Assembly: GCF_007858255.1 (NCBI RefSeq)
Contig: NZ_VFEU01000001.1
Coordinates: 372,001 to 436,000, forward strand
Direction: 5' to 3'
DNA from: Pseudomonas rhodesiae
GTDB lineage: Bacteria; Pseudomonadota; Gammaproteobacteria; Pseudomonadales; Pseudomonadaceae
Length of the DNA: 64,000 nucleotides
The position numbers and the translations under genes are program-made. Positions 3,062 to 31,450 of this stretch are shown here, piece after piece; position 1 is the first letter of the stretch, and each line of letters starts with the position of its first letter. The notes under the pieces were generated by a model. That model made no database searches. It was not told the DNA's origin and saw only the letters and a program-made list of their open reading frames with translations.

Positions 3062-3068
3062 TCCATGC

Positions 3069-8676: not shown

Positions 8677-9582
8677 GTGAGTAACCGAGGTGAGCAGGCA
8701 CTGCTCAAACAATCGACGATTCTGATGTTCGCAGTCGCGATCGCCGGGATTGTCACGGGTGTGATATCCGGCGCCCAATCCATTCTGTTCGACGGCTTTT
8801 TCTCGCTGATCGCCACCGCCATCAAGGTGCTGATGCTGATCACGGCCAAGCTGATCGCCAAGAAAAGCAACGAGCGTTTCCAATTTGGCTACTGGCACCT
8901 GGAACCCATGGTGCTGCTGATCGAAGGCAGTTTCCTGCTGCTGATCGCTATCTATGCGTTTCTCAACGGTGTGTTCGGCATTATCAATGGCGGGCGTGAG
9001 ATCGAGTTGGGGCTGGTGATCATCTATGCGGCGGTGTTTACCGTTGTTGAATTCGCTTACTTCTTCTATGTGCGCTACCGCAATCGCAAGCTCAAATCAT
9101 CGCTGATCCAGTTCGACAACATCAGTTGGCTGGTGGACGCGATGCTGTCGGTGGGGCTGCTGATCAGCTTTCTGGCCGCGCTGTTGCTCAAGTCCCAGGG
9201 CTATGGCGAATGGGCGGTGTATGTCGACCCCATGATCCTGATCCTGCTGGCCCTGAGCATGCTGGCGCCGGCGTTCAAGATCCTGCGCCCGGCGTTGCGC
9301 GACGTGCTGGGGATTGCCCCGGATCATCTGGACGACAAGGTCCGCGAGGTAATGGACGCCGCGACGGCGAGACATGGTTTCGAAGAGTACGTGTCGTACG
9401 TGCAGAAGCATGGACGCGCTCGGTTTATCGAAATCCATGTGGTGTTGCCAGCGGATTACCCGGTGGATAACGTTGCGACCCTCGACGGACTGCGCGAAGA
9501 GATATCCACAGGGCTCGGCACGCCGGATGCGGCGCGCTGGTTGACGATCAGCTTTACCGCAGATCGTAAGTGGATTGCGTAA
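8677..9582 (+). CDS. Cation diffusion facilitator family transporter
   Basis: 301 residues with about six membrane segments in the first 200 residues (ILMFAVAIAGIVTGVISGAQ, then LFDGFFSLIATAIKVLMLI with the CDF-type DxxxS pattern) and a soluble C-terminal domain of about 90 residues carrying H residues (ATARHGFEEYVSYVQKHGRA, FIEIHVVLP). It probably exports a divalent cation by proton antiport. The frame is open from 8551, but GTG 8677 is selected since GGGAGG at 8667-8672 lies just upstream and the upstream frame reads through the REPIN. The metal cannot be told from sequence. Its 3' end overlaps the convergent AGE gene by 29 bases. Confidence 0.8.
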   Translation: MSNRGEQALLKQSTILMFAVAIAGIVTGVISGAQSILFDGFFSLIATAIKVLMLITAKLIAKKSNERFQFGYWHLEPMVLLIEGSFLLLIAIYAFLNGVFGIINGGREIELGLVIIYAAVFTVVEFAYFFYVRYRNRKLKSSLIQFDNISWLVDAMLSVGLLISFLAALLLKSQGYGEWAVYVDPMILILLALSMLAPAFKILRPALRDVLGIAPDHLDDKVREVMDAATARHGFEEYVSYVQKHGRARFIEIHVVLPADYPVDNVATLDGLREEISTGLGTPDAARWLTISFTADRKWIA

Positions 9583-10672
9583 GGCCCTGGTAGCAGGTCG
9601 CCAAGTGATACGGCGTGGTCGACGGCATGTCCCGTCGGCTCACGGCGCCGTTGGCATCCAGGCATTCGTGCCAGCCTTTGTCGTGCAGGAAGTGCTGCTG
9701 CAGCGCCAGCAATTGGCGTTGCAACACGGCCTGGCTGTTGGGGCGCAGAGTCAGCGCGCGCAGGTATTCGGCCTGGGCCCAAATGCGTTGGGTGCCGTCG
9801 CGCACGCTGCCATCGAGGGCAAGCATGCCGCTGACCGCGCCGGTCACGTTATCTACACCCTTGAGTTCGGCATAGGCAAACGCCCGCGTCAGTGAGGCGT
9901 GCAACGGCGTACCGCGCAGCACATCCGACGATTCCAGCAAAAAGAACCATTCGAACTGGTGCCCGGGCTCAAACCAGTTATCCACAGCATTCAGCGGTTT
10001 TTCCATCATCACGTCGTGCTGGCGGTCGATGAAGCGCTTTTGCATAGCGGTTGCCAGGCTGAGCAGAGCGGCTTGCACGGCGGCGTCCTCACGCACCGCG
10101 AGGGTGGCCAGAAAGCCTTCGGCCAAATGCATCAACGGGTTCTGCAGCGGGCCGGAATCGAGCGACGACCAGTTGCGCTCCAGTACGGCTTCGTACAGGC
10201 CGTCATCTATGGCGAAGCGTTGCGCGACGACTTCCAGGGCCGCGTTGAGTACCGATTCCACCAACGGTTCGCGCACCTTGGCCCAGTAATGGGCACAGGC
10301 GAAGATGATGAATGCGTGGGTGTAGAGGTCTTTGCGCATGTCCAGCGGCTGGCCGGCGGGGTCGATGCTGTAGAACCAGCCGCCGTGTTCGGCGTCGTGG
10401 AAGTGCCGCTGCAAGGAGCGAAACAACGCCGCTGCCCGCACTTGGGCAAACTCGGCATCGGGTTGGCCGATCAGGCTGGCGAACAGATACAACTGCCGGG
10501 CGCAGGCCATGGCGCGGTAGCGTTGCGGCGGTAAAGGATGGTGATCGGCGTCCAGCGCCTCGTAAGGCAACGCCAGCTCGGCATTCCAGCCTGGGCCCTG
10601 CCATAGCGGCACGATCAGGTCATGGAAGTGGGTGAGCACGGTGTTCAAAGAGGGTTGGGAAGCGCTGGGCAT
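9554..10672 (-). CDS. AGE-family epimerase/isomerase (N-acylglucosamine 2-epimerase fold)
   Basis: 372 residues of an (alpha/alpha)6-barrel type protein. Recognisable family segments are RAMACARQLYLFASLIGQP, HGGWFYSIDPAGQPLD, KDLYTHAFIIFACAHYW and NWFEPGHQFEWFFLLES, the last with the conserved histidines of AGE/YihS/mannose-isomerase active sites. The reaction is probably interconversion of mannose/fructose or a similar aldose-ketose pair in the cytoplasm, but the substrate is not evident. Convergent with the cation-efflux gene, overlapping it by 29 bases. Alone as a transcription unit. Confidence 0.78.
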   Translation of the reverse strand: MPSASQPSLNTVLTHFHDLIVPLWQGPGWNAELALPYEALDADHHPLPPQRYRAMACARQLYLFASLIGQPDAEFAQVRAAALFRSLQRHFHDAEHGGWFYSIDPAGQPLDMRKDLYTHAFIIFACAHYWAKVREPLVESVLNAALEVVAQRFAIDDGLYEAVLERNWSSLDSGPLQNPLMHLAEGFLATLAVREDAAVQAALLSLATAMQKRFIDRQHDVMMEKPLNAVDNWFEPGHQFEWFFLLESSDVLRGTPLHASLTRAFAYAELKGVDNVTGAVSGMLALDGSVRDGTQRIWAQAEYLRALTLRPNSQAVLQRQLLALQQHFLHDKGWHECLDANGAVSRRDMPSTTPYHLATCYQGLTQSTYDLR

Positions 10673-10747
10673 TGGCTGGCGTCGTCACGGCAGAGGTGTA
10701 GGCGCGCATGGTAGCAGGCTTGGGTTCTGTGGTGTCTGTGGCACAGC

Positions 10748-11270
10748 TATCGGGGGCAAGCCCCCTCCCACCTTTTGATAGCAATGCAGCCAAATGTGGG
10801 AAGGGGCATGCCCCCGATGAGGCCTTTAGCCGCACTACCAATCAGCCCGCCAGCAACCAGGTCTCTCATACCTTTTGATAGCAATGCAGCCAAATGTGGG
10901 AGGGGGCTTGCCCCCGATGAGGCCTTCAGCCGCACTGCCAATCAGCCCGCCAGCAACCAGGCCTCTCATACCTTTTGATAGCAATGCAGCCAAATGTGGG
11001 AGGGGGCTTGCCCCCGATGAGGCCTTTAGCCGCGCTGTAAATCAGCCCGCCAGCCACCAGACCCCTTCCACCGTTTGATAGCGCTGCAGCCAAATGTGGG
11101 AGGGGGCTTGCCCCCGATGAGGCCTTTAGCCGCGCTGCCAATCAGCCCGCCAGCAACCAGGCCTCTCATACCTTTTGATAGCAATGCAGCCAAATGTGGG
11201 AGGGGGCTTGCCCCCGATGAGGCCTTCAGCCGCGCTGCCAGTCAGCCCGCCAGCAACCAGACCCCAGTCG
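10748..11270. repeat. Five-copy 100-bp tandem array (hupE 3' end plus REP)
   Basis: An exactly 100-bp unit repeats five times, each beginning CCTTTTGATAGCAATGCAGC (or close variant) at 10771, 10871, 10971, 11071 and 11171. Each unit contains a REP palindrome (GTGGGAGGGGGCTTGCCCCC) and the segment CAGCCCGCCAGCAACCAG. In the last copy that segment encodes the C-terminus (VWLLAG-stop) of hupE, so the other copies look like duplicated, non-coding gene tails. An inverted REP at 10748-10770 caps the left end, next to the AGE gene. Copies differ at a few positions (copies 2 and 5 share GGCCTTC; copy 4 starts CCGTTTGATAGCGCTGC). Small open frames in the array are repeat artefacts. Confidence 0.95.
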
Positions 11271-11814
11271 CCGCCGAAGCCGCCCCGGCCACTCGCACCA
11301 ATGGCGCCGCTGCCGCCGGCAGGAAGCGCACCAGTGCATAACCGGCTGCGTGCAGTGCTGCCGTCGCGCCGACAAAACCGGCGGCGTATGCCCAAGGGCT
11401 GGACATCTCCGGCAGTTCCAGGCCATGGGCCACACCGTGAAACAGCGCAAACAACGCCGTGGCGCCCATCGCCATCAACAGCGGCGGCCGCACCGCCAGC
11501 GCCACGGCCAGGCCCAGGGCCAGCACCGAGGCGGCAATCCCGTTTTCCAGCGCCGGCAGCGCCAGGCCTTCGAAACCCAGCAAGCCGCCGATCAGCATCG
11601 TGCCCACAAACGTGCACGGCAGCGCCCAGCGCGCGGCGCCTTTTTGCTGGGCGGCCCACAAGCCCACCGCCAGCATGGCCAGCAAATGATCGAGGCCGCC
11701 CAAGGGGTGGCTGATACCGGCCACCAGGCCGTTATCGCCGTGGCCGGGATGGGCGAAGGCCAGCGCCGGAGCGAGAAGCAGGGCAGCGGTGGCAAAGAGT
11801 TTGTTGAGGCTCAT
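11242..11814 (-). CDS. ureJ: HupE/UreJ family metal (nickel) transporter
   Basis: 190 residues. A cleavable signal (ATAALLLAPALAFA) precedes the HupE/UreJ fingerprint HPGHGD and then six hydrophobic segments with SHPLGGLDHLLAMLAVG and ALFHGVAHGLELP, whose His/Asp residues are typical of this family of secondary Ni/Co permeases. It lies directly downstream of ureG-ureF-ureE, so it probably supplies nickel for urease. AAGGAAG precedes the ATG. Its last codons fall inside the fifth unit of the 100-bp tandem array, which has copied this gene end four more times downstream. Confidence 0.88.
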   Translation of the reverse strand: MSLNKLFATAALLLAPALAFAHPGHGDNGLVAGISHPLGGLDHLLAMLAVGLWAAQQKGAARWALPCTFVGTMLIGGLLGFEGLALPALENGIAASVLALGLAVALAVRPPLLMAMGATALFALFHGVAHGLELPEMSSPWAYAAGFVGATAALHAAGYALVRFLPAAAAPLVRVAGAASAATGVWLLAG

Positions 11815-11836
11815 AACTAGCTTCCTTGAAGAGAGA

Positions 11837-12451
11837 TCAGGCGGCGGTCAGCAGACCCTGGCGTTCGATAAAGGCCACGATGTCGTCCAGGCCGACCCCG
11901 GTTTTTTGGTTGCTGAACACAAAGGGTTTACCGTTGCGCATGCGCTGGGTGTCGCTGTTCATCAGTTCCAGCGAGGCGCCGACCAAGGGGGCGAGGTCGA
12001 TCTTGTTGATCACCAGCAGGTCGGATTTGCAGATGCCCGGGCCGCCTTTGCGCGGCAGCTTGTCGCCGGCGGACACATCGATCACGTAGATGGTCAGGTC
12101 CGACAGTTCCGGGCTGAAGGTCGCCGACAAGTTATCCCCACCGGATTCCACCAGGATCAGGTCCAAGCCGGGGAAGCGGCGGTTGAGTTGATCCACCGCT
12201 TCGAGGTTGATGGAGGCGTCTTCACGAATCGCCGTGTGCGGGCAGCCGCCGGTTTCCACGCCGATGATGCGCTCGGGCGCCAAAGCCTGGTTGCGCACCA
12301 GAAAATCGGCGTCTTCGCGGGTGTAGATGTCGTTGGTGACCACCGCCAGGTTGTAGCGATCGCGCAGGGCGAGGCACAGGGCCAGGGTCAGGGCGGTCTT
12401 GCCGGAGCCTACCGGGCCGCCAATGCCGACGCGCAAGGGTTGTGTGTGCAT
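11837..12451 (-). CDS. ureG: Urease accessory GTPase UreG
   Basis: 204 residues. The P-loop GPVGSGKT is at residues 12-19, with [14 protein letters not shown], the [17 protein letters not shown] metal-binding CPH motif and [10 protein letters not shown] (NKxD) all present. UreG is the GTPase/nickel chaperone that works with UreF and UreD(H) to load nickel into UreC. The frame extends 9 codons further upstream, but ATG 12451 (MHTQPLRVG) has GGAG 6 bases ahead and matches the family start. 39 bases after ureF. Confidence 0.95.
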
Positions 12452-12490
12452 GTGCTTCTCCGAAGTAAAGGGCGCCAAAATTAAAAGAAC

Positions 12491-13165
12491 CTATGAACGA
12501 AACAGGCGGCTGTACTGGCGCTCGTGGGCCATGCACGCCAGGGACAGGCCAAACGCGGCGCTGCCGCAATGGTCGGGGTCGATGCGACTGGCGTCCTGCT
12601 GGGCTTGTTGCAACAGCGGCAGCAGTTCGCTGGTCAGGCGCTGGGCAGCTTGCTGGCCCAGGGGCAGGGTTTTCATCAGCACGGCCAATTGGTTTTCCAG
12701 CCAGCTCCACAGCCACGCGGCGAGGGCGTCTTCGGCGCTGATGCTCCAGGCGCGCGCGGCCAACGCCCAGCCAAGGGCCAGGTGTGGTTCGCTGAGGTGG
12801 TCGAGAAAGTGACGTGCGGCGGCGTCCAGTTCGGGCAATCCGTTGAGCAGTTGTTGCAGGGAATAGCCCATCTGCCGACTTTCTTGATACAGCTCGCGAG
12901 TCTCACGGCTGGCGCGGTGTTCTTCGCACAATTGCGTCAGCCGCGTCCAATCCTGAGCGGCGGCCGCCCGGCAGTGGGCGAGCAGCAAAGGCGCTTCGAA
13001 GCGCGCCAGGTTGAGCAGCAACTGGTCGCCGATCCAACGCCTGGCGCTGGCCGCATCGCAGACGCGGCCGTTCTCCACGGCCATCTCCAGGCCCTGGGAA
13101 TAGCTGTAGCCGCCAATCGGCAATTGCGGACTGGCCAGACGCAGCAACGCCCAAGCTGGGTTCAT
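12491..13165 (-). CDS. ureF: Urease accessory protein UreF
   Basis: 224 residues, all-helical UreF fold. N-terminal LLRLASPQLPIGGYSYSQGL is the family signature. UreF bridges UreD and UreG in the maturation complex and acts as fidelity checkpoint for GTP hydrolysis. Start codon overlaps the ureE stop (ATGA at 13162-13165), so translation is coupled to ureE. Normal length. Confidence 0.94.
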   Translation of the reverse strand: MNPAWALLRLASPQLPIGGYSYSQGLEMAVENGRVCDAASARRWIGDQLLLNLARFEAPLLLAHCRAAAAQDWTRLTQLCEEHRASRETRELYQESRQMGYSLQQLLNGLPELDAAARHFLDHLSEPHLALGWALAARAWSISAEDALAAWLWSWLENQLAVLMKTLPLGQQAAQRLTSELLPLLQQAQQDASRIDPDHCGSAAFGLSLACMAHERQYSRLFRS

Positions 13166-31347: not shown

Positions 31348-31450
31348 TTAAGCGGCAAGCTTCAAGCTTCAAGCTTCAAGCTGCAAGTAAGAGCGGGCGG
31401 ATGCCTGCTTTGCTTTAACTTGCCGCTTGAAGCTTTAGGCTCGAAGCTGG
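31348..31450. repeat. AAGCTTGCAGCTT-type imperfect inverted repeat
   Basis: AAGCGGCAAGCTTCAAGC with three TTCAAGC units on the left is mirrored by CTTGCCGCTTGAAGC on the right, about 60 bases apart. A related element lies at 54835-54975. Both sit in gaps between genes on the same strand. Confidence 0.7.

Follow-up and report, generated by a model that had tools for sequence, protein, structure and literature searches.

The gap between the hupE/ureJ gene of Pseudomonas rhodesiae and the GlcNAc 2-epimerase family gene downstream of it raises the question of how the end of a protein-coding gene came to be repeated there in tandem with a REP, and whether the repeated DNA has a selected role. The window, i.e., the whole stretch of 64,000 nucleotides that was analyzed, carries hupE/ureJ at positions 11242–11814 of the minus strand (190 amino acids, Pfam HupE_UreJ), preceded on the same strand by ureG and ureF (Pfam), while the epimerase gene occupies 9554–10672, likewise on the minus strand. 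The gap between them holds five head-to-tail units of 100 bp with 0 indels. TRF reports a single array at 10770–11260 (period 100, 4.9 copies, 92% matches, 0% indels), and the direct-repeat search places five copies at spacings of 100, 100, 100, and 100; together with the alignment of the units, both bear out the five-copy array proposed in an earlier sequence-only reading of this DNA. Since a CCCC tract in the capping REP (10762–10765) and another one in hupE (11262–11265) are offset by exactly 500, the limits of the array are set at 10762–11265, corresponding to 5 × 100 bp plus a terminal match of 4 bp (CCCC on the plus strand), with no strand assigned to the array as a whole.

Each unit comprises, on the hupE side, the final 24 nt of this gene, which is the donor of the copied gene end; one REP and the spacer of the REPIN follow, and the unit reaches into the first arm of the second REP. 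As these 24 nt comprise just seven codons and the stop, the gene tail in question is a short piece. Unit T1 (11166–11265) adjoins hupE and holds its genuine terminus, with the stop codon at 11242–11244 and the last seven sense codons reaching 11265, in agreement with the claim that the last unit still encodes the HupE C-terminus. T2 (11066–11165), T3 (10966–11065), T4 (10866–10965), and T5 (10766–10865) follow, all listed on the minus strand. The five GI REPs of the units are all in plus orientation, at 11196–11218 (T1), 11096–11118 (T2), 10996–11018 (T3), 10896–10918 (T4), and, with two mismatches, 10796–10818 (T5). The REP of T5 is at the same time the first half of an inverted REP doublet, the REPIN at 10749–10818, whose second half is the capping GI REP in minus orientation (10749–10771); the doublet folds into one long hairpin. 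GI REPs are abundant in the window (22 matches at ≤3 mismatches versus a mean of 0 in shuffles), and no Rfam family was found at 9500–12500. Elsewhere in the window, inverted GI REP pairs are located at 3067/3130, 8520/8561, 27826/27868, 29611/29675, 42530/42594, and 63129/63193; they fall into two spacing classes, at about 41–64 bp from start to start.

The genome is a draft of 82 contigs with 349 exact copies of the REP 23-mer, and the copy number of the array may be wrong in such an assembly. It is very improbable, however, that the array is an assembly artefact, be it a different true copy number or a mis-join of REP-rich reads. The units differ from each other at 5–13 of 100 positions in pairwise comparison, which speaks against an invented array, and the period is exact; moreover, what the junctions link to the hupE tail is the REPIN spacer of this very locus and not foreign REP flanks.

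The single-copy state of the locus is found in a relative. For comparison, 80 + 30 = 110 hupE loci were sampled from genome collections with one genome per species, including the window itself (L089), and the position of hupE was established for 109 of them (all except L106). In P. lurida (L009), the HupE protein of which is 96.3% identical, the gap measures 168 nt and contains a single pair of inverted REPs, located +23 and +70 from the stop; two further sequences (G039 and L090) are identical to it in the hupE gap. The corresponding gap of the window measures 569 nt and its REPs stand at +24, +124, +224, +324, +424, and +471, meaning that it has been lengthened from about 168-169 nt while HupE stayed intact. 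A period scan finds a tandem period behind hupE in only one of the 109 loci, which is the window's own. From the single REPIN in P. lurida and the restriction of the array to this locus, it follows that the REPIN came first and that the array is lineage-specific as sampled. The earlier view of the unit as a gene end plus a REP, with a REPIN as founding element, is thereby supported, and the origin of the array by duplication of the REPIN together with the gene end can be taken as shown.

Gaps of more than 400 nt occur in three loci, namely the window, L049 (571 nt), and L077 (608 nt). The latter two were considered as further arrays and rejected; they contain a different insert and no tandem period. 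By eye, their hupE-epimerase inserts of about 400 nt seem to be the same element in opposite orientation, with TATCTACACAACTTT-like ends. The array is absent from the 108 other hupE loci examined. A genus-wide search with the exact pattern of GCGGGCTGA repeated at the array spacing matched 42 of 398 genomes; only the four matches in the own genome fall into this array, the others being unrelated as judged by eye. Because the pattern is exact, divergent hupE tails would escape this search. Copies of a CCCTCTCCCGAGGGAGAGGG palindrome unit were seen at G018 C1:1284562-1284797 and G146 C1:2864633-2864754, and in G018 two matches form a head-to-tail pair spaced by about 113 bp.

The mode of duplication may be read from the junctions. 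In transcript sense, the junction between T2 and T3, at the far end of T2, reads GGTGGAA-GGGGTCTGG, a sequence in which the start of the second REP is fused to the end of hupE, and it is only one change off the expected founding junction GGTGGGA-GGGGTCTGG, which makes it the nearest of all to the latter. The remaining three junctions have four further changes in common, all within 12 bp. The founding junction probably used a match of four bases, GGGG in transcript sense. At random pairs of breakpoints 100 bp apart, the frequency of a match of at least four bases is 0.016 if the hupE-ureGF stretch is taken with the array excluded and 0.15 if the array is included, and alternative 4-base matches exist when the offset is moved by 1 or 4; the breakpoint match would, thus, lend modest support to microhomology. 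Concerning the order of events, two columns of the unit alignment, 32 and 39, combine in all four possible ways among T1, T2, T4, and T5, from which it is concluded that the units either swapped sequence with one another or underwent parallel mutation and that no clean serial order can be derived. Duplication of the gene end together with the REP stands, but its description as serial is not confirmed, and the unit alignment that had been suggested for inferring the duplication order yields an ancestral-looking junction lying between derived ones. The idea that the junction changes rebuilt a hairpin was rejected; the changed junction, at -27.3 kcal/mol, is less stable than the inferred founding one (-35.0 kcal/mol), and among 5,000 junctions given four random changes, 22.5% fold equally well.

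Based on these data, the array would, with good though incomplete confidence, represent a lineage-specific expansion of a REPIN and a gene tail by microhomology slippage, most likely without a selected role. The sequences show that the starting point was a single minus/plus REPIN, placed as in P. lurida about 23 nt past the stop of hupE, and that the unit consists of the 100 bp extending, in transcript sense, from GGGG in the last hupE codons to another GGGG, with which the stem of the second REP begins. During replication, a strand end copied up to the base of the REP hairpin would re-pair with the GGGG of hupE and recopy the 100 bp. Two copies would then become five via slippage or unequal exchange of the 100-bp repeats, accompanied by some exchange between units. 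Slippage at microhomology is considered likely.

One end of the array lies inside a REP, as do 6 of 20 ends overall in ten arrays, and a role of the transposase is therefore conceivable. According to this explanation, the RAYT transposase would nick a REP and the nicked end would prime recopying, making array growth enzymatic. The genome does encode one RAYT-type gene (PF01797, 27.5 bits at a cut-off of 23), located about 270 bp from a REP array of 116-bp period, and Nunvar et al. proposed that RAYT drives the growth of BIMEs, to which slippage alone seemed to them insufficient (PMC2817692). The other breakpoint of the window array, however, is hupE coding sequence without a REP, and the ends found in REPs are about as many as coverage predicts (6/20 versus 5.1), for which reason RAYT-specific breakpoints were rejected. 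Enzymatic amplification is, thus, regarded as unlikely, and slippage is preferred.

Fixed-period arrays, taken as products of the same process, also occur at other places in this genome. Ten REP stretches were sampled, consisting of nine groups of at least three exact REPs chosen by eye among the first 100 places listed and one other trio. Nine of these ten clusters contain a fixed-period array, with L133 as the exception; the periods (in bp) and copy numbers are 460 × 3.0, 116 × 6.2, 131 × 5.1, 195 × 5.9, 181 × 6.5, 184 × 3.7, 214 × 3.1, 172 × 6.7, and 312 × 3.0. Two of them, L131 and L132, share the layout of the window array, with evenly spaced REPs in the same orientation and one inverted cap. 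The array next to the RAYT-type gene (L131:1486-2208, G000 C1) consists of seven same-strand REPs every 116 bp and one inverted cap. The arrays L130:1337-2715 and L139:1181-2109 include a REPIN and the terminal part of a long open frame, amounting to about 318 and 213 nt, respectively. In L134, the outermost copies near 1292 and 2441 seem, by eye, to be REPs without the palindrome core. When four array loci were checked in three relatives, the array of the own genome was absent from all of them. In all three relatives, L139 and L132 each correspond to one REPIN; the site of L130 contains no GI REP in the three, and the RAYT-side locus L131 shows a different arrangement in each.

What the amplification did to the transcript end can be approached by RNA folding. 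The predicted fold energies are -10.1 kcal/mol for a single unit REP, -20.7 to -28.1 kcal/mol for junction-spanning segments, and -53.4 kcal/mol for the REPIN at the far end. The claim that each copy adds another strong hairpin can consequently not be upheld: the copies are half-REPINs that contribute REP singlets or junction hairpins, and the sole long REPIN hairpin stays single and has been displaced from hupE by an additional 400 nt. The RNA of the full 608-nt array shows strong long-range folding (z -4.4; 20 shuffles), and z is -3.3 for the corresponding stretch of P. lurida. From these results it is concluded that the array keeps the RNA structured but takes the long hairpin away from the hupE stop.

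Among the relatives, a strong hairpin behind hupE is the rule. The first 120 nt past the stop have a median fold z of -7.4, with 91 of 107 distinct regions below -2, versus a median of -0.9 and 14 of 107 for the hupE coding control. An inverted repeat (14-base arms, ≤2 mismatches) is present in 88 of 107 regions versus 1 of 107 mononucleotide shuffles. By keyword sorting, these 88 inverted repeats comprise GI (9), CGCGAGCA-type (29), CGCGGGCAAGC (13), CGCAGGCAAGCC (7), CGCCGGCAAGCC (3), and CGCCAGCAGGC (2) elements, AAGCTGCAAGC palindromes (7), CCACGCTC/GCGTGG palindromes (4), and others (14), where the labels REP and non-REP for the individual classes are presumed. The palindrome class of the strong hairpin changes with the species (L009-L118). 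Within the window, a short AAGCTGCAAGCTTC tandem at 31350-31387 resembles the palindrome behind hupE in L010 and its like.

The prevalence of this hairpin would favor the explanation that the array is kept for its extra hairpins and its 400-nt spacer, be it to the benefit of the ure-hupE 3′ end or as insulation of the epimerase gene. Against it stands that the window itself, with a z of +0.8 over the first 120 nt, belongs to the 16 regions departing from this rule, short hairpins having replaced the long one nearby, and that none of the 108 other loci has the array. An intrinsic terminator with a T-run was looked for on the transcript strand (minus) and none was found; the one terminator-like site is on the plus strand, with 0.8 expected by chance, and promoter-like sites were not found. 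Retention by selection is hence rated as quite unlikely, and a by-product of slippage without a selected role is the most likely interpretation of the array.

A more general proposal links both observations. REPINs behind stop codons would repeatedly seed tandem duplication of the adjoining gene end, with slippage at the base of the hairpin rather than the transposase as the mechanism. The ure-hupE end, for its part, would need a hairpin and would have obtained it time after time from whatever mobile palindromic family was available, including several classes of REP and two or more further types of palindrome. The window array would then be one of the few instances of a near hairpin taken apart by amplification. 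Taken jointly, these ideas are tentative and on balance doubtful; an insertion preference for short gaps past stops would explain the hairpins equally well as a need for them.

Arrays of this general kind have been described. P. fluorescens SBW25 contains 16 REPIN clusters and two evenly spaced arrays of GI REPs (Bertels and Rainey 2011, PMC3116915), to which the window array is similar in REP type and in tandem units carrying flanking sequence. In contrast to the SBW25 arrays as described there, the unit of the window combines one REP with the end of a protein gene and is capped by a complete REPIN, and its single-copy state is visible in a relative. Large clusters of GTAG-type REPs are depicted as single REPs or dimers that recur along with the DNA flanking them (PMC3733652); in the description considered here, neither a gene tail nor a junction analysis figures, both of which are available for the window array. 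As in the BIMEs in which 3′ ends of rayt were captured between REPs (Nunvar et al. 2010, PMC2817692), gene 3′ termini lie between the REPs of the array, but in the BIMEs as presented there the gene is that of the transposase and the REPs alternate, whereas here it is hupE and the unit REPs have the same direction. The alternation of REPs within the unit that characterizes the BIME-2 of E. coli type is likewise not seen, five REPs being plus and the cap minus; the GI-type palindromes, the inverted doublet, the tandem repetition together with flanking DNA, and the presence of a RAYT gene in the genome are those of the tandem REP/REPIN clusters of fluorescent pseudomonads. Given such published clusters, the window array belongs to an already known kind. 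A literature search for hupE together with a REP element found nothing, and one pairing REP with tandem duplication or microhomology returned no bacterial REP arrays among the matches listed.

Summarizing, the locus bears on the question of how REP arrays grow, that is, by slippage or by the RAYT transposase. It is a datable case, in which the single-copy state is known, a breakpoint lies in unique coding DNA, and the junction is legible. It also calls for caution, since copies of gene ends inside REP arrays can pass for coding sequence. Otherwise, the array is an ordinary outcome of hosting hundreds of REPs.
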